Source of the DNA: Spirochaetota bacterium
Lineage (GTDB): Bacteria; Spirochaetota; UBA4802; UBA5368
DNA length: 64,000 nt
NCBI GenBank assembly: GCA_035477215.1
Contig: DATIKU010000053.1
Span: 124,001-188,000 of the forward strand
Direction of reading: 5' to 3'
Shown here: positions 38,531 through 47,536 of the stretch, one piece after another
Numbering within the stretch: position 1 is the first letter of the stretch
Layout: each line of letters opens with the position of its first letter
The notes under the pieces: generated by a model
What the model saw: the letters and a program-made list of their open reading frames with translations, nothing else
Database searches by the model: none
What the model was told of the DNA's origin: nothing
Program-made: the position numbers and the translations under genes

Positions 38531-39133
38531 ATGCAGAATATGGACTATTACAGCCGGAGCGGCGCACGGAACCACCCGTATCATCTCGACACAACCGATC
38601 CGGAATATTTCGCGCGCATGAGCGAAATGAACCACCGGGAGAACGAGCGGATTCGCAAAAAGGCAACCGGGCTCATGTCGTTCGTCATAGCGCTCTGCAT
38701 AATATCGTTTACCGCCGGACTGGTTATCGGCATCAAGTTCGCCGGCGGCTCCCAGAAAGAGATCGTGGACAAATCGACCAGGCAGGCGATGTCGAGCACA
38801 ATCAAAAAGGTGTCCGGCCTCCTGAACGAAAACGCCGTCGCCGAAGTCCGCAACAAGGACAAAGCCGGAAAATCCGCGAGCGACGTCTTCCCCCGGAGCG
38901 AATACCCTTTCATAATCCCGATAGGGAAAGATCTGAGCAGGGAAAAATCACAGGAGATCGCCGGCTTCCTGAGTTCCGGCGGCCACACGGTGATTCTATC
39001 CCGGACCGGGGCCGGGTATCGGCTGTTCACCGGCCCTTTCAAGACCAGGGGTGAGGCTGAAATTTCCTTGAAAAAAATAACCGGCTATTCTAACAAGACA
39101 TGGTTTCAGAACGCCCAGATCGTAAAACGATGA
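38531..39133 (+). CDS. membrane protein with C-terminal SPOR domain
   Basis: The start MQNMDYYSRSGARNHP is preferred because AGGG lies nine bases upstream; an in-frame ATG nine bases earlier is too close to it. The 200-residue protein has a cytoplasmic N-terminus of about 45 residues, one membrane span (LMSFVIALCIISFTAGLVIG), a linker and a C-terminal SPOR domain (YPFIIPIGKDLSREK; GYRLFTGPFKTRGEAEISLKK). SPOR domains bind denuded septal peptidoglycan, so a division or envelope role is likely. Its TGA is followed one base later by the ATG of the next gene. Confidence 0.8.
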   Translation: MQNMDYYSRSGARNHPYHLDTTDPEYFARMSEMNHRENERIRKKATGLMSFVIALCIISFTAGLVIGIKFAGGSQKEIVDKSTRQAMSSTIKKVSGLLNENAVAEVRNKDKAGKSASDVFPRSEYPFIIPIGKDLSREKSQEIAGFLSSGGHTVILSRTGAGYRLFTGPFKTRGEAEISLKKITGYSNKTWFQNAQIVKR

Positions 39134-39134
39134 C

Positions 39135-39608
39135 ATGCACACAGAAATCAGAGAGGCCGGTCCCGCGGACGTAGAGTCGATATACCGCCTGCTGTACCCC
39201 TACGCCCAGGAGAACATCATCCTTGAGAGAAGCCGCGAGGAGATAGCGAAGTCTATTGACAAATTCCTTGTAGCTGCCTATACTACAGATATAGTAGGCG
39301 CGGTATCCTATTATGATTACGGCACGGCGCTCAAGGAGGTCCGGTCGCTGGCCGTGAAAAAGGACTCCGGGGGATCAGGGACCGGCTCCGCACTGGTGAG
39401 GGGCCTCTTGGCCATGCTCCTGGAGCGCTTTCCAGGCGCGAAAATATTTGTTCTCACTTATTCGCCCGGATTCTTCGGCAGACTCGGTTTCATCGAAGTG
39501 CCGAGGGAGACCCTGCCGGAAAAAATATGGAAGGACTGCGACCACTGCAAAAACAGGGAGAATTGCGGAGAGACCGCGCTGGTCTTTGTTCGGGACGGAT
39601 GCCGATGA
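39135..39608 (+). CDS. GNAT acetyltransferase, N-acetylglutamate synthase-like
   Basis: The 157-residue GNAT protein has the acetyl-CoA region VRSLAVKKDSGGSGTGSALV, with GGSGTGS in place of the usual R/QxxGxG/A loop. The C-terminal half is FGRLGFIEVPRETLPEKIW followed by KDCDHCKNRENCGETALVF. This end strongly recalls short ArgA-type N-acetylglutamate synthases, where a similar Cys-rich segment follows LPxKVW. Arginine synthesis is therefore the best guess. It overlaps the PilZ gene by four bases (ATGA). Confidence 0.78.
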   Translation: MHTEIREAGPADVESIYRLLYPYAQENIILERSREEIAKSIDKFLVAAYTTDIVGAVSYYDYGTALKEVRSLAVKKDSGGSGTGSALVRGLLAMLLERFPGAKIFVLTYSPGFFGRLGFIEVPRETLPEKIWKDCDHCKNRENCGETALVFVRDGCR

Positions 39609-40027
39609 AAAAATCCATAGACAAACGCACCTTCGACCGAATCAAAATGCACAAGTTCGTCGTCGAATACAAGATCAAGGGTCGCGATCCCGTCTACCAG
39701 GCCGAGCTCATCAATCTCGGCGCCGGGGGGATGTGCTTTCTGCGCAATTCCATCATCACCCGTGACGACCAGCTGCTTGTCAAGTTCCCTTTCAAAACCA
39801 GAAAAGTTATCCTGAACGGGCAGATTGTCCGGATAGACGGACGCGAGGTGGCGGTCAGATTCGCCAACGGCGAAGATGAAATAAAGGCATTCGTCGACAC
39901 ATTTAACGAAGAATACCCGATTCTCTTTAAGAGTACCGCAAGGAAGGGCGGATTGTTGCGCATGCCCGGCGACGCGTCGCAGGATTCGGACGGTGACGAA
40001 ATGCGAAATATTTTCGACATCGACTAA
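39605..40027 (+). CDS. PilZ domain protein
   Basis: This is a 140-residue protein whose ATG overlaps the preceding stop (ATGA). The PilZ c-di-GMP signature is present: RTFDR (RxxxR) near the N-terminus and NLGAGGM (N/DxS/GxxG) about 35 residues later, then a beta barrel with KFPFKTRKVILNGQIVRIDG. It likely binds c-di-GMP. The acidic C-terminal tail (DASQDSDGDEMRNIFDID) is outside the domain. Its stop overlaps by four bases with the stop of the convergent gene. Confidence 0.85.
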   Translation: MKKSIDKRTFDRIKMHKFVVEYKIKGRDPVYQAELINLGAGGMCFLRNSIITRDDQLLVKFPFKTRKVILNGQIVRIDGREVAVRFANGEDEIKAFVDTFNEEYPILFKSTARKGGLLRMPGDASQDSDGDEMRNIFDID

Positions 40028-40902
40028 TCGGAGAAGGACAGCCGGAAACTCTGCATCACTTTTTCCATAAGCGCTTCGTTCCGGGCCCTTTCGGAACCGG
40101 CGGATATTATACGGACGCAATAACCGTACCGGCCGCGCAAATAAAACGCCTCGTACCCGCCATAGGCCGTGCCGTCGTCGAAACGCGAGAGGTCTTCGCG
40201 TTCCCCCGCACGAAGCGGCGTCCGACGAAAAGAATCCGCGCCGAGGTTTTTCGCCCAGTTCTTTTTAAGCGCGGTCATGTTGCTTATTTTCGACGGAAAC
40301 CGCTCGCTGTCGATCGCGATGAGCACGTCGTAGGCGGAGGCGTCCGGCCCTGCGGTGGAGCCTGAAAAACGCACTCCCGCCAGAAGCCCGTAATAACGGT
40401 ATTGTCCATATTCGCGCATTCGCCGGCGCAGTACTGTCGCCTCGCCGGGAAATTCCAGGCGATAGCGCATCAGATCATTGACAAGAACAACAGCCCCTTC
40501 CTGGCGGTACAGCAATATCGAAGCGTTTTGATCAAGCTCCGCATAGCGGTCACCCTCTTTTTTTATGAGCCGGTTTATCTCGGAGGAGGCTTTCGACCGG
40601 TAATCGGAAGTCTTACCGCCGCCGGCGGGCATCGCCAGTATTGACTTTAGAAGAGTAAGCCCTTCAAATTTATACCCACCCTTCACCAGCTCCACACCCT
40701 GGTTGAAGTAAAACGCGATCCCCGACTCAGAAACCGCCCTGTAATCGAATTCCGGCTTGCCCGATGTGTATATCTTCCCGTTGGGATCGGCGTAGTACCG
40801 GTTGCCGTCCCCGTCGCGGACCATTATCCAGTCGGGCATCTGCGCCAGAGCGCCCGAGTGAACGAGGAGCGCCAGCACGACTGCTGAGAATTTCTTCCGC
40901 AT
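40024..40902 (-). CDS. secreted protein of unknown function, 292 aa
   Basis: I do not recognise a family. A signal peptide (MRKKFSAVVLALLVHSGALA, probable cleavage before QMPDW) precedes a soluble domain. A region of YYADPNGKIYTSGK is followed by a helical, tetratricopeptide-like stretch (FYFNQGVELVKGGYKFEGLTL) and a C-terminal alpha/beta part. It likely acts in the periplasm or outside the cell. Confidence 0.7.
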   Translation of the reverse strand: MRKKFSAVVLALLVHSGALAQMPDWIMVRDGDGNRYYADPNGKIYTSGKPEFDYRAVSESGIAFYFNQGVELVKGGYKFEGLTLLKSILAMPAGGGKTSDYRSKASSEINRLIKKEGDRYAELDQNASILLYRQEGAVVLVNDLMRYRLEFPGEATVLRRRMREYGQYRYYGLLAGVRFSGSTAGPDASAYDVLIAIDSERFPSKISNMTALKKNWAKNLGADSFRRTPLRAGEREDLSRFDDGTAYGGYEAFYLRGRYGYCVRIISAGSERARNEALMEKVMQSFRLSFSD

Positions 40903-41283
40903 GATTTGTTTCCGTATCTATCACCGTATCTTTTATCGAAATGCAGGTTCGATTCCGGCCCCTTGCGCCCGCCCGGCATGTGCCGGCGCTTTCGAGTCCG
41001 GAAGAGCCCGGATTCACGGCGCTGTGACAATATCTTATGCTAACGATAATCCATCTTGAAACGTCAATAAAATCATTGTTTTTTAAAAAATATTTGAAAT
41101 TGTTATTGAATATTTTAAATAATAATATTTATTTGTCAACTTATTATGCATTAAATTTATACTATACTATAGGATCGATATCCTGTTCGACGGCCGGTCG
41201 TTTTATCATACCGGCGGGGGAAGTGCGGAGCGATTCCGGCAGATCAGGACCCGACACCCATTTGCCACGGATTTTCAAAAGCT
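40903..41283. other. intergenic region, GC-rich half and AT-rich half
   Basis: No gene is supported. The left part is GC-rich with a small palindrome (ccggcatgtgccgg near 40975). From 41037 to 41170 the DNA is strongly AT-rich, unlike its surroundings, and contains the candidate promoter of the Fis-type gene. Confidence 0.5.
41133..41161 (+). promoter_or_regulatory. candidate promoter of the Fis-type gene
   Basis: TTGTCA (41133-41138), a 17-base spacer and TTTATA (41156-41161); an overlapping TATACT lies at a 19-base spacing. It lies in an AT-rich island about 120 bases before the start codon. Confidence 0.45.
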
Positions 41284-41544
41284 ATGAAAGACAACCTCGA
41301 AACCAACATCAGAAGGAGCAGCCCGCAGGAGGGCGTCCGAACGGCTTCTGCAAAAGGCAGAAAGAGACCCGTAAAGCTCCCGGAGGGCCATGAAACCCTT
41401 CAGGAAGTGATCGACAGGGTCGAAAACGAACATATACGCCGCACGCTCGAGCTTACCAACTGGAACTTGCAGAAAACGAGCAGGGTTCTCGATATCGCGC
41501 GCAACACCCTCAAGGCCAAGATCAGGAAATACGAAATCGGCTGA
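41284..41544 (+). CDS. Fis-type helix-turn-helix DNA-binding protein
   Basis: The 86-residue protein has a disordered basic N-terminus and a C-terminal Fis/NtrC-type HTH: LQEVIDRVENEHIRRTLELT followed by NWNLQKTSRVLDIARNTLKAKIRKYEI. This is the isolated DNA-binding domain of a sigma54 activator, or a small Fis-like protein, with no receiver or AAA+ domain. It faces the STAS/ATPase cluster, whose last gene ends 10 bases away on the opposite strand. Confidence 0.82.
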   Translation: MKDNLETNIRRSSPQEGVRTASAKGRKRPVKLPEGHETLQEVIDRVENEHIRRTLELTNWNLQKTSRVLDIARNTLKAKIRKYEIG

Positions 41545-41553
41545 ATACGTCTT

Positions 41554-42579
41554 CTAAATCAAAGAGAATATAATGATAAGCGCCAGGATCACAAGCCCAA
41601 GCAGGAGCGCGAGGTAGAGTACCAAGCGGCCTTCTCCCCTGTCGGCCGGCTCCTCCAACGGGGCGGCGTCCATCTCGATCTTGACGTTTTCCTCTTCGAT
41701 AATTTTGGCCATCACATTCTTCGCCACAAGCGCGTAGATGATATAACCGAATTTCCCCTGCGATACCTTCTCCTTTACTCTCCCTTTGATCGGCAGAATC
41801 TCGCCCTCCTCCGTGTAGGCGTTGAGGAGCTTCGCCACCTTGACCGAGATTGCGTCTTTCGCCGTCAGGAGCACGCGAATATTCTCGCCCGTGCGCACAT
41901 CATTGATGTATTTCCCCCGCACCGGCGAAACTATCACCTTTCCCGGCACGACATATTGCGCCTGCCGCTCGATCTCGGCCAGGCGGTCATCCGCACCCGC
42001 CGCCGCTACGCGCCGGGCGTCGTCCGCGCCCTCGATCTGGACGCCCTCGAGCTCCAGTGCGAGCGAACTCGTCTTCTCCATTTCTATCTGGCACCGAGGG
42101 GGCTCGGCGCGATAATACTTTTCCACGATCTCGGCGATAACGTTGGAGGCGGCGTCGAGGTCCCACGAGTCCACTGTTTCGTAAATATCATATCCGTCCA
42201 GTGAGTCCGTAAGGTGGTTTGAAAACTCAAAAGATCCGGTGGAGTTTTCGCCCGAAGAGCGCACGGCCGAGCCAAAGTCCGCGTAGAACAGCTTCCAGCT
42301 GTCGAAGATCCGCGCCCTGTCGGCAAAACCGCTGTCGGGGAGCACAAGCGAATTGACGCTTACAAGACGCCGGGTGGAGATGTTAAGGAAAATGAGAAAG
42401 ATGCCGTGCGTCCCGGACGAGGGTAGCGAGAATTTGCCTTTTATCGCCGCAACGTCGTCATACTGCCCGGCCACCATGAGGCGCGCCTTTTCCATGTCGC
42501 CCCCGGTGTGCTTCATCGCGATGTTGAAAAGCCTCGCCTGTTCGCCCAGGGCATCCGATGAAGCGCCGTCCGGTGTCAT
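41554..42579 (-). CDS. tail-anchored protein of unknown function, 341 aa
   Basis: I recognise no family. The soluble part has beta-rich sequence (KGKFSLPSSGTHGIFLIFLN) and a region predicted as coiled (IVEKYYRAEPP). The middle has an alternating KVIVSPVRGKYINDVRTGEN block. The C-terminal 22 residues (RLVLYLALLLGLVILALIIIFSLI region) form a single membrane span at the very end, so the protein is probably tail-anchored with its bulk in the cytoplasm. It is the last gene of the minus-strand cluster, 10 bases after its neighbour. Confidence 0.72.
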   Translation of the reverse strand: MTPDGASSDALGEQARLFNIAMKHTGGDMEKARLMVAGQYDDVAAIKGKFSLPSSGTHGIFLIFLNISTRRLVSVNSLVLPDSGFADRARIFDSWKLFYADFGSAVRSSGENSTGSFEFSNHLTDSLDGYDIYETVDSWDLDAASNVIAEIVEKYYRAEPPRCQIEMEKTSSLALELEGVQIEGADDARRVAAAGADDRLAEIERQAQYVVPGKVIVSPVRGKYINDVRTGENIRVLLTAKDAISVKVAKLLNAYTEEGEILPIKGRVKEKVSQGKFGYIIYALVAKNVMAKIIEEENVKIEMDAAPLEEPADRGEGRLVLYLALLLGLVILALIIIFSLI

Positions 42580-42589
42580 CCGCCACCCC

Positions 42590-43063
42590 TCACGCGTTCT
42601 CAGCCAGGCATTTTTCGAGCATTTCGTATTTCTTCTGGGGCGGCATGGTGACGATTTTTTTCATGTTCTGTATGACTTCCGCAAGAAATTTCGACGAGGT
42701 CTCGATGATGAAGTACCCGTCGCTGTCGATGTTGTTGATAATCGTCACCCGGTTCGTGGGGAGCTTCATCCCCAGCATTGGGCCGATCGATTTTATGAGA
42801 TGCTCCGGCAGCATGTACTTGACGGAGAGCCTGGGCAGGCCCGCTTCCAGCCGCTTGAGGGGCCGGAAGGAAGCGTACTTCTCATCGGTCATCAGGCTCC
42901 ATTTCTTCGGATTGTCGGTGACGAATACGATCACGGAGTTTTCGGTTTCCGATATAAAGAGGCTTATATACGTATTGTAGGATTTATACGACGACAAAAG
43001 CCCGAACAGGCTGTCGTCATCACACTTGCGCGCCTCCCGGGTCTTTTTAAGGGGTATCTTCAT
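42590..43063 (-). CDS. hypothetical protein, 157 aa
   Basis: There is no recognised family. It is a soluble alpha/beta protein beginning MKIPLKKTREARKCDDDSLF, with YISLFISETENSVIVFVTDN and a helical C-terminus (KFLAEVIQNMKKIVTMPPQK). The ribosome-binding site is weak. It lies 89 bases after the STAS-like gene and directly before the tail-anchored gene, suggesting a shared transcript and a role in the same system. Confidence 0.65.
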   Translation of the reverse strand: MKIPLKKTREARKCDDDSLFGLLSSYKSYNTYISLFISETENSVIVFVTDNPKKWSLMTDEKYASFRPLKRLEAGLPRLSVKYMLPEHLIKSIGPMLGMKLPTNRVTIINNIDSDGYFIIETSSKFLAEVIQNMKKIVTMPPQKKYEMLEKCLAENA

Positions 43064-43152
43064 GGTCGCCGCTGTTCGTGGGATAGAATACGCGGGACGG
43101 GGGTGTTAATGCAACCATTTTGTCATGCGTTCCGGACAAAATATCGACGCGC

Positions 43153-43713
43153 CTATACCGACTGGTAGCGCCCCGGCGGTCCAACCGACTCTCTTCTCAC
43201 CACCCGGAGCGTGTACAGCCCTTCCACAATCGGCGCTGCATCCTCCTCCCTCATTCCGATGAACGCGGCAATATCGCCCAGGGCGGCGATCCTGTTTATC
43301 CGGAGATAATCCAGCACGTCGCGCTCTGAATCGGAGATGGTGCCGATACAATACGAGTTCATTGCCGTCAGGCTTTCGGTCACCACGGCAATTCTGCGTT
43401 CGTTATACGCATGGTACGAGTTTAAAACCGAATCGATATTCATTTCGATGATCGGCGTGATGTTCGCCAGCTTAACGAAGAAAACCAGAGCCCCTTCGCG
43501 CGAATCTTCGACAAGCCTGAGAAGAAACTCGTCAATGAACGACGAGTCTATGACCTGCACTCCCGAGAAGTCGACGAGCATCACCTCGCCATCGGTCATG
43601 TGCGACATGTTTTTACGCGTCTTCTCGTACATCCTTCTGCCGACCGGCCTCGTTATAAGGTCGGGCAGCCGTATCTTCAAATCCCTGGCGGTGTTTCTAA
43701 TCTGTATCACCAT
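43153..43713 (-). CDS. STAS-like domain protein with C-terminal winged helix
   Basis: The 186-residue protein begins MVIQIRNTARDLKIRLPDLI, then has a STAS-like (DUF4325-type) core, GEVMLVDFSGVQVIDSSFID (about residues 42-61), with a Ser pair where STAS proteins are phosphorylated. The C-terminal 65 residues (ISDSERDVLDYLRINRIAAL; GLYTLRVVRRESVG) resemble a winged helix. Such proteins pair with a HATPase in regulatory switches. It follows the ATPase gene by 18 bases. Confidence 0.75.
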   Translation of the reverse strand: MVIQIRNTARDLKIRLPDLITRPVGRRMYEKTRKNMSHMTDGEVMLVDFSGVQVIDSSFIDEFLLRLVEDSREGALVFFVKLANITPIIEMNIDSVLNSYHAYNERRIAVVTESLTAMNSYCIGTISDSERDVLDYLRINRIAALGDIAAFIGMREEDAAPIVEGLYTLRVVRRESVGPPGRYQSV

Positions 43714-43731
43714 TCGATCGAGCGCTCCTTT

Positions 43732-44637
43732 TTATCCGAAAAGAGAGATGGAAATCTGGGTGCCCGGAAAAGATGTCAGGTCGTCCCGTAAAAACAGATG
43801 CGATGAGCCGCTCTGCCTGCGGTTGTAGAGCACCGCGGCCGAACTGTCGGCCGAACGAATATAAATGCTGCCCTTCAGTTTTTCGATAATGGAGTTTACC
43901 TGGCATAGCCCGTAACCGAACCTGCGCTTGCTCGATATCGGCGTGGTCAGCGCCTTCTCGATTATTCGCGACCCGGGTTCCGAGGCGAACTCGCTTCGCC
44001 CGCCGAAGCTCTCCTTTATGCCGATCCCCGAGTCCATAATAACCAGGCGCACCACGTGTTCGCTGCCGATGGAGTAGGTTTGCATTGCGCAATAACCCGA
44101 GTCGAGGCTGTGCTCGAAGATATTCTGGCACACCTCCGATATTACCGTAACGAAATAGTCTATGATCGCCGCGTTCAGCCAGTATTTGAGTATATGCCCG
44201 GCGCGTCTGCGGAAAACCGCTATTACGCCCGCTATCGCGCGAATGCTTTCCCGTTCCCTGCCCGGGATATCGGTAATCTCGACAACCCTGTTGCTGAATG
44301 AGCTGCGGCGGTACAGGAGCTTTTCGTCAAGCCTGTCCAGAACCACAAAAGCCCCCTTTGATAAAAAATCCATGCGGGCCAGGTATTGATGTATATTGAG
44401 CGGGATGTTGGCGAGGCGCAGGCGCCCGCCTGTGTACCGAAGATGGTTGCGGCCCAAAAGCAGAAGCGCCAGCATCGAGTAGGGTTCGATGAAGCTTATG
44501 GCCGAAAAGTCGAGCGTTGCAACGCGTTCGCGTGATATCTTTTCACCAAGACTGATGATGTCCTCGAACGAATACACGTCCCTGCACCGGTCGGGCAACA
44601 GGAGGGTGGTGTTGGTCCCATCCGTCAATAAATACAC
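43732..44637 (-). CDS. STAS + histidine-kinase-like ATPase protein
   Basis: The 301-residue protein starts at GTG (the upstream frame is closed by a stop 9 bases before). An N-terminal STAS-like domain (VATLDFSAISFIEPYSMLAL, residues 39-58) is joined to a GHKL ATPase: N box Glu168/Asn172/Glu175, G1 box MDSGIGI (residues 201-207) and G2 box GYGL (residues 241-244). No phospho-accepting His domain or sensor is seen, so it is a switch or anti-sigma-type kinase rather than a normal two-component sensor. It is the first of four codirectional genes. Confidence 0.78.
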   Translation of the reverse strand: MYLLTDGTNTTLLLPDRCRDVYSFEDIISLGEKISRERVATLDFSAISFIEPYSMLALLLLGRNHLRYTGGRLRLANIPLNIHQYLARMDFLSKGAFVVLDRLDEKLLYRRSSFSNRVVEITDIPGRERESIRAIAGVIAVFRRRAGHILKYWLNAAIIDYFVTVISEVCQNIFEHSLDSGYCAMQTYSIGSEHVVRLVIMDSGIGIKESFGGRSEFASEPGSRIIEKALTTPISSKRRFGYGLCQVNSIIEKLKGSIYIRSADSSAAVLYNRRQSGSSHLFLRDDLTSFPGTQISISLFG

Positions 44638-44780
44638 CCGTGTTCACTTTATTTACTCCATGAAGCCGGCTCGATTGCCGGAAGGCCCCCGGGGCACTCC
44701 CTTCATCCGCTTTAATAATATCGGAAGTCACGGCCGAAACATTTACCCCCGGTGGGGAATCCGCGGTTCGGGGAAGCTGC

Positions 44781-44805
44781 CCGGGAGGACTGGAAATCCT
44801 CCCGG
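44781..44805 (-). other. perfect hairpin upstream of the STAS/ATPase gene
   Basis: A 9-bp perfect stem (ccgggagga 44781-44789 with tcctcccgg 44797-44805) has a 7-base loop. It lies about 145 bases before the ATPase start and 55 bases after the stop of the 47-aa gene. There is no T-run. It might end the small gene's mRNA or act in the leader. Confidence 0.4.
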
Positions 44806-44858
44806 TAAACGGAGCCCGCATACGTCAAGATACTGTTTCTTTAAAACGAAGGGGTAGC

Positions 44859-45002
44859 TCAGTAAAAACCCTGATACTCGTTTCGGGCAATCCTGTATTT
44901 CTTGCGGTAATACTTCACAATGGTGGGCTTGATCATGAGATAGTTCGCTATTATCCTGTCAGGCCACCCGTACTCGAGAAGTCTGAGAATGGATTTCCTC
45001 AT
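44859..45002 (-). CDS. small basic HTH-like protein, 47 aa
   Basis: This frame was found by reading the minus strand: GGGAGGA is followed by ATG and MRKSILRLLEYGWPDRIIAN, then YLMIKPTIVKYYRKKYRIAR and a short tail. The helix pairing looks like a homeodomain-like helix-turn-helix. The strong ribosome-binding site supports it as a real gene. It could be the upstream member of the STAS/ATPase cluster. No family is known to me. Confidence 0.6.
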   Translation of the reverse strand: MRKSILRLLEYGWPDRIIANYLMIKPTIVKYYRKKYRIARNEYQGFY

Positions 45003-45182
45003 TTTTCCTCCCTGAGCTGTGTTTATATCACTCCGTTGGGGTTATTATTCCCGTGTTGCGATTAATTTCAATCACTTAATTAATTAAAATTTAATTTTTG
45101 TAAAGGTTTTGTGAAATCTTCTGTCTTATAACACTTAGATCTATTACGTTCATTTTCGTTGGCTATATCTCCATTCAGGCGG

Positions 45183-45210
45183 AAAGACGGCCCTCCGGGG
45201 CCGTCTTTTT
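45183..45210 (+). terminator. intrinsic terminator in the bactofilin leader region
   Basis: The stem aaagacggcc/ggccgtcttt with a GC-rich loop is followed by more T. It is symmetrical, so it could work on either strand. No plus-strand gene lies upstream, so it may end a small RNA or a leader transcript. Confidence 0.6.
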
Positions 45211-45273
45211 ATTCTTGCCGAAGGGTGGCGCCGGTGATATCGTTTAAATGACGGGTCTGGAAAAACTTCCTTG

Positions 45274-45296
45274 AAAAACCCGCAAACCGGGTTTTT
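45274..45296 (+). terminator. second intrinsic terminator, 41 bases before bactofilin
   Basis: A perfect 9-bp stem aaaaacccg/cgggttttt with a 5-base loop and built-in T-run. It lies between the first terminator and the bactofilin start, so it might attenuate bactofilin or stop minus-strand transcription. Confidence 0.55.
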
Positions 45297-45337
45297 ATGA
45301 CACTCGGAAGTCAATCAACAGGCCGGAAAGGAAGACA

Positions 45338-45745
45338 ATGGCGCGTACAAGCAAGCAGATAGAAGACAATATCGTCAACAGCATCATTGGAGAGGGCTCG
45401 GAGTTCAAGGGGGAATTTACGGTCAACGGACTGCTCCGAATCGACGGCCGCTTCAAGGGTACAATCGAGACCGACGGCAAGGTGCTCATCGGCCAGAGCG
45501 GCGAAGCGACCACGGACATCCATGCGCGCGTTGTGGTGATCGGCGGCGTTGTACGCGGCAACATCTTCGCGACGGAACGGGTTATAATGCTTGCGACCGG
45601 CAAGCTTCACGGCAACATAATAACGCCAAGCCTGGTTATGGAGGATGGGGTGATCTTCGACGGCAACTGCGTTATCAACAAGCGGCCTGACCAGCTCGCC
45701 GAATTGCAGCACGCCCGGCCGGAGCACCTCGGTGAGCCGCTATGA
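45338..45745 (+). CDS. bacA: bactofilin, polymer-forming cytoskeletal protein
   Basis: The 135-residue protein begins MARTSKQIEDNIVNSIIGEG. The body is the bactofilin beta-helix of short repeats: FTVNGLLRIDGRFKGTIET, KVLIGQSGEATTDIHARVVV, GGVVRGNIFATERVIMLATG and KLHGNIITPSLVMEDGVIFD. Bactofilins self-assemble into filaments and help set cell shape or position envelope enzymes. Its stop overlaps the start of the yaaR-type gene by four bases. A good ribosome-binding site (GGAAAGGAAGACA) is present. Confidence 0.93.
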   Translation: MARTSKQIEDNIVNSIIGEGSEFKGEFTVNGLLRIDGRFKGTIETDGKVLIGQSGEATTDIHARVVVIGGVVRGNIFATERVIMLATGKLHGNIITPSLVMEDGVIFDGNCVINKRPDQLAELQHARPEHLGEPL

Positions 45746-46191
45746 TAGAGAAAACCTCGACCGACCTTAAAAAAGACGAAAAGCTTAGGATCAAAACCAA
45801 AAAACGCTCCGCTTTTTCATCGTCGGGACCGCCCAAGACATTCGACGCAAGCCTGCAGAACGCGCTGCACTTCGAGTTTCATGACACGATAGAGGGCCTT
45901 ATGTCCGACCTGGGCGAACAGGAAAAGCGCTTCCTCGACCGGCAGACGCCCTATGAACTCAACCGATACAAGTCCCTGGTGAAAGAAATATTAAAAACCA
46001 TCCTGGAGGGTTCCCTGAAGGTCACCCCGCTGAAACGCCAGCGGCGCGACAGGGCGGACTTCGCGATCATCGAAGAAATCAATTCGAAACTGTTTTCCAT
46101 GTCCGATGCGGTCACGCGGAACAACAAGGCATTCGACTTGTTAAAGGCGGTCGAGGAGATCAGGGGGCTTCTTTTCGATCTGCAGTTCTAG
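45742..46191 (+). CDS. YaaR/DUF327-family protein
   Basis: The 149-residue helical protein contains FHDTIEGLMSDLGEQEKRFL (about residues 47-66), TPYELNRYKSLVKEILKTIL (about residues 70-89) and FAIIEEINSKLFSMSDAVTR, the pattern of YaaR/DUF327 proteins known from Firmicutes and spirochaetes. Its function is unknown in the family. It overlaps the bactofilin gene (ATGA), so the two are cotranscribed. It ends one base before the convergent pth stop. Confidence 0.8.
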   Translation: MIEKTSTDLKKDEKLRIKTKKRSAFSSSGPPKTFDASLQNALHFEFHDTIEGLMSDLGEQEKRFLDRQTPYELNRYKSLVKEILKTILEGSLKVTPLKRQRRDRADFAIIEEINSKLFSMSDAVTRNNKAFDLLKAVEEIRGLLFDLQF

Positions 46192-46192
46192 T

Positions 46193-46807
46193 CTACCGGC
46201 GCACCCGTATCTTCCGTATCTTTCTCTTCTCGAGCTTGACGGCACCTTCCGGGTTGTACTTGTTCTGGACTTCCTCTATGCTCTGGTTTACGAGCATCTT
46301 CACGACCTTCTCGGCCTTGTTGAGTACATCGATAAGAATGAGGTTTTCCTCGTCGGTAAAATCCTGAAGAAGGTAGCTCTCCATCGAGGTCCCTGACGGA
46401 GGGCGGCCCACGCCGACCCGCACCTTGGCGAATCGGTCCGACTTGAGCGCTTTGGTCATGGATTCAATCCCCGCATGTCGCATCGAGGACATAAGGTAAT
46501 CCACGCGAAGCTCTCCGATCGAAAGTTCGGTGTCTTCAACGACGCACACTATATCGCGCACATTAATTCGCAAAAACGACGCTATATAAAGAACCGACTC
46601 GCCGATCAGATTGACGAATGTCTGCGGCTTCAATAAAACGACGTCGGTGTCGCGGATCTTACCCCTTCCGATGACGGATTTCTTCTTCTTGACTTTAACT
46701 TCGATATTCTCGTTGTTCCCCAGGATATCAACAACCTTAAAGCCTATATTCTGCCTGTTGTTGAAAAATTTCTCTCCCGGGTTCCCGAAACCAACTATCA
46801 ATTTCAA
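46193..46807 (-). CDS. pth: peptidyl-tRNA hydrolase homologue with altered active site
   Basis: The 204-residue Pth-fold protein has GFGNPGEKFFNNRQNIGFKV and KPQTFVNLIGES (Asn10 and Asn68 by E. coli numbering retained). The catalytic His20 of TRHN is Gln (NRQN; codon 46751-46753). The Asp93 motif reads VEDTEL (Asp to Glu by my alignment) and GGHNG reads MRHAG (Asn114 lost). The C-terminal tail is long and basic (KLEKRKIRKIRVRR). Position after prs and ctc is the normal pth place, so it descends from Pth, but hydrolase activity is doubtful. Confidence 0.8.
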   Translation of the reverse strand: MKLIVGFGNPGEKFFNNRQNIGFKVVDILGNNENIEVKVKKKKSVIGRGKIRDTDVVLLKPQTFVNLIGESVLYIASFLRINVRDIVCVVEDTELSIGELRVDYLMSSMRHAGIESMTKALKSDRFAKVRVGVGRPPSGTSMESYLLQDFTDEENLILIDVLNKAEKVVKMLVNQSIEEVQNKYNPEGAVKLEKRKIRKIRVRR

Positions 46808-46842
46808 CGATATTTCACTCCTGCTTTATTCTGATTGAAGTA

Positions 46843-47484
46843 CTACTCCTCGGACTTTTCCTTCCCATCCGCGGCGGCCTCCGCATCGACAGGGGCTTCC
46901 TCGGAAACCTCTTCCTTCACCGCCTTGGGTATAAGCACCGTCACAACCACCCTGTTTGCGTCGGCGAGGAAACGCAGCGATCCGGACACGGGGAGGTCTT
47001 TCACCTGTATTGAGTGCCCAAGGTCGAGATTTGTTACATCGATCTCGATCTTCTCGGGAAGGTCTCCGGGCAGCGCTTCTATCTGGAGCTCCCGCTCTAT
47101 AACATCGAGCATTCCGCCCATACGCTCTCCCTTCGAGGTCCCGATTGTCGTTACCGGCACAACCGTCTGGAGCTTCTCGGAGAGGTCGACCTTGTAAAAA
47201 TCGAGATGCGTTACCTCGTCGGTGACGGGGTTGAGCTGATAGTCCTTGACGATGACCTTCTGCTCGGGCTCGGCCGAGCCGCCGGCCACCTCGAGGTCTA
47301 TAACCACACTTTCCGATATGTTACCCTTGAACAGCTTTATAAACTCGTGCCTGGGAACCTGCACCGCCTCGGATTTTCCGTGCGTATAAATAATGGCCGG
47401 AATAAAGCCGCTTCGTCGAAGCCGGCTGCACGCGTTCTTGCCGGTTTCCTTTCGTATCTGCGCCGTCAATTTGTGAGTCTTCAT
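46843..47484 (-). CDS. rplY: 50S ribosomal protein L25, CTC long form
   Basis: The 213-residue protein begins MKTHKLTAQIRKETGKNACSRL and contains RRSGFIPAIIYTHGKSEAVQV in the 5S rRNA-binding domain. The C-terminal CTC domain has VTHLDFYKVDLSEKLQTVVP and ends in an acidic Ala/Glu-rich tail (EEVSEEAPVDAEAAADGKEK). It stands between prs and pth, the usual prs-ctc-pth order. Confidence 0.95.
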   Translation of the reverse strand: MKTHKLTAQIRKETGKNACSRLRRSGFIPAIIYTHGKSEAVQVPRHEFIKLFKGNISESVVIDLEVAGGSAEPEQKVIVKDYQLNPVTDEVTHLDFYKVDLSEKLQTVVPVTTIGTSKGERMGGMLDVIERELQIEALPGDLPEKIEIDVTNLDLGHSIQVKDLPVSGSLRFLADANRVVVTVLIPKAVKEEVSEEAPVDAEAAADGKEKSEE

Positions 47485-47536
47485 TGTCCTGGTCCTCTCT
47501 ATTGGTATCGTAATGGCCGGGTATTCCCAGTCTGTG

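Follow-up and report, generated by a model that had tools for sequence, protein, structure and literature searches.

How far can a kinase–STAS module be rewired in its signal and its output? A natural test is provided by a locus of four genes, here named K, S, g157, and g341, in a stretch of 64,000 nucleotides (nt) from a Spirochaetota bacterium (assembly GCA_035477215.1, contig DATIKU010000053.1, positions 124,001 to 188,000), referred to as the window throughout. By sequence comparison, K and S are homologous to CapK and CapS, a kinase and its substrate that control immune operons, and are not a new invention. The original prediction, made from the letters of the window, had proposed a new switch module and knew of no described system with this gene order; for the kinase–substrate pair, this has to be withdrawn (PMC13373217). 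In one uncultured spirochaete order, the conservation of the locus suggests that a homologue of an immune-type switch is inherited vertically as a core operon and has come to serve routine cellular regulation.

All four genes lie on the minus strand. K (43732–44637; 301 amino acids, GTG start) encodes a CapK/VapK-like protein with an N-terminal degenerate STAS domain and a GHKL ATPase domain. S (43153–43713; 186 amino acids) encodes a CapS-like protein, in which a DUF4325-type STAS domain is predicted at approximately residues 1–110 and a winged-helix fold at approximately residues 120–186. They are followed by g157 (42590–43063; 157 amino acids), a member of an order-specific family, and by g341 (41554–42579; 341 amino acids), whose product is predicted to be tail-anchored in the membrane and is a distant relative of the LIC10486/DUF4899 proteins. 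The gaps are 18 nt (K/S), 89 nt (S/g157), and 10 nt (g157/g341), in agreement with the close spacing described originally.

In the known systems, CapK is a kinase of the helix-turn-helix (HTH)–STAS–GHKL type that is activated by single-stranded DNA (ssDNA) via Trp68 and phosphorylates Ser54 of CapS, a STAS–winged-helix repressor that binds palindromes as a dimer; the phosphorylated CapS dimer leaves the promoters of the downstream immune operon (PMC13373217). These DNA-damage-responsive controllers of adjacent immune and anti-phage pathways were described with the structures 9z71, 9z72, and 9z73 by Chambers et al. (EMBO J, June 2026; PMC13373217), and a known immune operon lies downstream in 348 of the 443 published CapKS loci. 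VapK/VapS/VapC was described in the same paper; there, the STAS substrate VapS (structure 9z7o) is capable of holding a partner protein (PMC13373217).

The alignment of the spirochaete K proteins matches Vibrio CapK (hhalign E=1.6e-8). In the K of the window, a weak STAS region precedes a match to Pfam HATPase_c (3.6e-7); HATPase_c_2 and STAS_2 are matched weakly, and phrog_3364 is matched at 3e-18. The N-box E168-xxx-N172-xxx-H176 (N172 codon at 44122–44124, minus strand) is invariant, including N172, in 38/38 K proteins. Pfam gives no match to HisKA, another phosphotransfer histidine, or a sensor domain in K, which therefore does not class as a two-component histidine kinase; the ATPase without sensor or phospho-histidine had been recognized at the outset, and the comparison with partner-switch kinases made there is supported. 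Two parts of CapK are missing. The N-terminal HTH is absent, the alignment of the 301-residue K starting at the STAS domain, and the stretch aligned with W68 of Vibrio CapK holds a tryptophan in 0/38 K proteins. The input signal of K is probably not ssDNA sensed in the manner of CapK.

The substrate S aligns with Vibrio CapS (hhalign E=4.7e-6) over 161 columns (columns 1–177), spanning both domains. DUF4325 (PF14213) is matched by 38/38 S members (best 2.4e-9); the S of the window reaches 19.9 bits against a gathering score of 23, and other members pass it (24.8, 27, and 29 bits). Several members give weak matches to winged-HTH families, and S carries, as judged by homology, a C-terminal winged-helix fold. 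D56 and S58 are invariant in 38/38 S proteins. Herein, S58 (codon 43540–43542, minus strand) is the candidate phospho-acceptor and aligns with Ser54 of CapS. The S profile also weakly matches VapS 9z7o in a search of PDB sequences.

Pairs resembling K and S occur elsewhere with unrelated neighbours, on plasmids of Vibrio, Nostoc, and Planctomyces. This is one of two outcomes that the original prediction had set against itself; the other, that the four genes are not conserved together, is contradicted by the genomes described below. The Vibrio plasmid S matches the solved CapS structures 9z71/9z72/9z73 at 2e-49, and its kinase has a Trp at position 68; hence, this is a true CapK/CapS pair. The Nostoc plasmid pair is closer to the spirochaete K and S (3e-32 and 8e-12, hhalign). 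On the Nostoc linckia plasmid AP018224.1 (L116, 4902–9936), a CapK/CapS-like pair is directly followed by an operon that encodes one metallo-beta-lactamase-like product and one E2-E1-JAB fusion. Plain pairs of STAS-HATPase and DUF4325 proteins are found in phages and on an Alicyclobacillus plasmid. At a further locus (L018, 1302–4578), a STAS-HATPase kinase gene lies directly upstream of a restriction-modification-type DNA methyltransferase gene and has no adjacent DUF4325 gene. The spirochaete K–S pair shares its stock with CapK/CapS, yet it is not classed as a CapKS immune controller.

Genome-wide searches covered 393 spirochaetes, namely, 46 of the order of the window and 347 others. K is found in 38/46 genomes of the order, as is S with strong scores, and g157 in 41/46; g341 is order-wide. 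Outside the order, g157 is found in 0/347 genomes, the few matches to S are weak, short, and of the DUF4325 type, and the only relatives of the four are g341 paralogues, which are present throughout Spirochaetota. In the fetched neighbourhoods, the order K–S–g157–g341 and the common strand are kept in 38/38 genomes that have K and S, with K and S directly adjacent in each, and this arrangement holds down to 30–50% protein identity. The conserved gene order that was to be looked for in other spirochaetes thus exists, and it is more than chance. The outer neighbours vary by family (groEL, bactofilin/PTH/L25, a peptidase, and others); hence, the block is the kept unit rather than the region. A mobile-element reading was rejected: phage records hold 0 kin of K, plasmids give one distant match, and no close kin of K or g157 is detectable in IMG/VR viral contigs. 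At L098 (G144:C7, 8058–8600), a solitary g157 paralogue has a uvrA-like gene beside it, and K, S, and g341 are all absent there.

Family f5 is informative on how the four genes relate. In 3/3 of its genomes (90–96% complete), g157 and g341 are present and K and S are absent genome-wide; the remaining genomes of the order without the block are incomplete assemblies (69–89% complete). As f5 is nested within K/S-bearing families in the g341 tree, one joint loss of K and S is the simplest account. The f5 g157 proteins retain all 18 strongly conserved columns, and no S-contact residues that fade where S is lost were found in g157. Partial correlations of the distances between genomes, beyond the shared background, are 0.70 for K–S and 0.63 for g157–g341, but 0.15 for S–g157 and 0.00 for S–g341. 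The block thus consists of two coupled pairs, K with S and g157 with g341. Because f5 keeps g157–g341 without K and S, S is dispensable for this pair, in line with what an operon under S control would allow. Together, the two-pair coupling and the intact g157 columns point to the regulation of an otherwise autonomous g157–g341 pair and not to an obligate S:g157 complex.

Two promoter-like elements precede the two pairs on the minus strand. P1 (44718–44745), upstream of K, is of the CCGAT type, TAAATGTT-N12-TCCGATAT, and resembles the sigma-28 consensus. In 11/19 genera, CCGAT lies within −25 to −135 of K, where 2.6 at most would be expected (p=7e-6); g157 shows no such upstream enrichment. P2 (43085–43114), upstream of g157, is a sigma-70-like promoter candidate, TTGCAT-N18-TATTCT, with an individual p=0.083; sigma-70-like sites precede g157 in several families, being a part of the order, and are strong (p<=0.03) in 4/5 f2 genomes. 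The conservation of P1 and the sigma-70-like sites before g157 count in favour of the switch proposed below; in position, the latter correspond to the promoter that CapKS loci have downstream of capS. A perfect inverted repeat, ATTTTGTC-N10-GACAAAAT (43117–43142, minus strand; p ~0.02), adjoins P2 as a candidate operator. TAAAAGAGATTGCCACGCCCCGATA, or a variant close to it, recurs within approximately a dozen repeat copies on many contigs of the window's own genome (G000), perhaps as a dispersed repeat element.

We favour, at a probability of roughly 0.5, a reading of the block as a CapKS-type phosphorylation switch that would control g157–g341 via derepression. Using ATP, K would phosphorylate S at Ser58 of the STAS domain, as homology and the invariant sites suggest, and phosphorylation would shift S to another dimer or partner state. 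The likeliest step by homology with CapS would be the release of S from P1 and/or P2, that is, derepression. The result would be a higher output of g157, of the membrane-anchored g341, and usually also of a secreted fifth protein, if the direction of the effect is that of CapS.

Several observations weigh against this. The recognition helix of S is acidic, with a median net charge of −2, in contrast to +1 to +3 in the Vibrio, Nostoc, and Planctomyces relatives. The positions of Asn145/Lys151 of CapS are mostly E/D in S, a Lys at the second position occurring in 3/38, and equivalents of the wing glycines Gly169-Gly170 are absent in 38/38. Hence, DNA binding by S may be lost and is, on these residues, doubtful: of the STAS protein with a likely DNA-binding domain proposed originally, the winged-helix fold stands and the DNA binding is uncertain. 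In part of f3 and f4, the S–g157 gap is below 25 nt, which leaves no room for P2. The arms of the candidate operator are unchanged in a sister species (L107) and are not retained in other genera; a conserved operator at P2, good in the window and this one species only, was therefore rejected, and no operator conserved across genera was found. Finally, the consensus of P1 is suggestive of sigma-28; however, flagellin genes in this genome lack the element and give no support for such an identity, which is not claimed.

Neither partner gene can be placed by its fold. For g157, a profile search gives no consistent Pfam match, and although its AlphaFold2 model is confident (predicted local distance difference test, pLDDT, 87.3), Foldseek finds no PDB match at E<=0.001. 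Neither Pfam nor Foldseek gives a PIN nuclease fold in g157, which therefore does not qualify as a VapC-like third gene. For g341, the profile search that had been proposed for both proteins gives a match to NF047678, the NCBIfam LIC10486 family, at 1e-14 (54.4 bits, far under the curated cut-off of 500 bits) and weak DUF4899 matches in 15/39 members. Its AlphaFold2 model is of moderate quality (pLDDT 82.1; predicted template modelling score, pTM, 0.52) and contains one long hydrophobic C-terminal helix (residues 316–340, approximately 41560–41634, minus strand). This predicted helix is read as a membrane anchor and supports the tail-anchored protein proposed before. Foldseek gives no PDB match for g341 at E<=0.001, and its long, low-TM matches were discarded as meaningless. 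In the tree, the block-linked g341 clade is separate from the g341 paralogues. A g341 paralogue lies just downstream of a CheY-like receiver gene, identified by reading its sequence and not via a family search, both in the window's own genome (L124, 4627–6360) and in a congener (L131, 4673–6267). This is no more than a lead towards a possible recurrence of g341-like proteins in signalling settings.

The best surviving alternative to derepression, tentative and clearly the less probable of the two, is a switch at the protein level with VapKSC-like logic. Herein, S would be a CapS relative that stays off DNA, its worn winged helix binding a protein (g157, g341, or one encoded elsewhere) that is released by K phosphorylation, so that K and S, driven by an input other than ssDNA, would control a membrane-linked g157–g341 complex. 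The acidic recognition helix and the missing wing and DNA-contact residues fit this, as do the many genomes whose S–g157 interval is too short for a promoter, and VapS is a precedent for a STAS substrate holding a protein partner (PMC13373217). The missing PIN nuclease fold in g157 speaks against it, as do the distances, by which S is nearly independent of g157 and entirely so of g341, and the survival of the conserved g157 columns after the loss of S.

It is improbable that K–S is a regulator acting elsewhere that merely neighbours an unrelated g157–g341 operon. The retention of g157–g341 alone in f5, the lone g157 paralogue in G144 (L098), and the two-pair pattern of distances agree with two independent operons, but 38/38 genomes, though deeply diverged, keep the adjacency and order with small gaps while their outer neighbours change. 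A classical partner switch, in which K and S would be the anti-sigma and anti-anti-sigma factors, respectively, for a sigma factor encoded elsewhere, is likewise unlikely: the N-box is of the SpoIIAB type, the phospho-serine position is that of SpoIIAA, and the CCGAT element before K suggests an alternative sigma factor in a genome that encodes FliA, but no sigma gene recurs in approximately 40 neighbourhoods, and the fused STAS domain of K and the winged helix of S are typical of CapK/CapS and not of SpoIIAB/SpoIIAA.

Three further genes adjoin the block. A fifth gene on the same strand (40024–40902; 292 amino acids), missed by the original prediction, encodes a signal peptide followed by an invariant QMP motif; the predicted secreted protein has no family match, and its gene lies downstream of g341 in 32 loci among those examined. 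The Fis-type HTH gene (41284–41544, plus strand; HTH_8 E=2e-10) does converge on g341 as described, and the 47-residue HTH-like gene (44859–45002), taken to be divergent, lies on the minus strand and is co-directional with the block. Neither is part of the conserved unit to which they had been assigned. The Fis-type gene is present in only approximately 12 loci. The small HTH-like gene is real and under strong purifying selection, with a ratio of nonsynonymous to synonymous substitution rates (dN/dS) well below 0.1 against its relatives; it is present in 17/46 of the order's genomes and in some of them lies well away from the block. Its membership in the block, or an origin as a split-off CapK HTH, was rejected since it lies on other contigs in f2, G007, and G132 and persists in f5 without K. 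Between it and K lies a terminator-like inverted repeat (approximately 44780–44805), and Rfam gives 0 matches over 39000–47500. A defence-system reading of the block was also rejected: PADLOC gave just a generic Fis-type HTH match for the side gene and none for K, S, g157, or g341, and no immune genes were recognized in the neighbourhoods.

With these CapK/CapS homologues, a vertically inherited core locus is described in which the Trp that senses ssDNA and the residues that contact DNA are gone and two order-wide partner proteins are present. Two unstudied spirochaete families, g157 and the LIC10486/DUF4899 kind of g341, thereby gain a testable regulatory context. If the protein-level switch were true, one bacterial order would have converted a regulator of the immune type into a core module of its signalling.

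Compared with known systems, the locus resembles CapK/CapS in that a STAS–GHKL kinase directly precedes a STAS–winged-helix protein, with the N-box Asn and the phospho-Ser conserved, and in that the pair lies upstream of genes it possibly controls. Unlike CapK, the spirochaete K is without the N-terminal HTH and Trp68; unlike CapS, the spirochaete S is without the DNA-contact Asn/Lys and the wing glycines, and its recognition helix is acidic. None of the downstream genes is a known immune gene, and the block is a core locus of one order and not a mobile defence cassette. With VapK/VapS/VapC it shares a kinase without an HTH, a STAS substrate, and a third gene directly downstream, whereas the C terminus of S has the length of a winged helix and g157 is no PIN-domain nuclease. 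The phrog_3364-like STAS-HATPase and DUF4325 pairs of phages and plasmids show the same two-gene arrangement and homologous domains, but they have DUF4325 alone, with no winged helix, g157, or g341. In SpoIIAB/SpoIIAA and RsbW/RsbV, the N-box of the serine kinase and the phospho-serine position of the STAS protein are comparable with those of K and S; the block differs by having no sigma factor and by the domains fused to K (STAS) and S (winged helix). SpoIIAB/SpoIIAA have also been compared with CapK/CapS-type pairs (PMC13373217). For g341, the nearest described family is LIC10486 (NF047678)/DUF4899, with paralogues across Spirochaetota, of which it is a distant relative scoring far under the curated cut-offs. 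The CapK/CapS-type switch itself is known already; the changed sensor and DNA-contact sites and the order-specific core partner genes set the locus apart.

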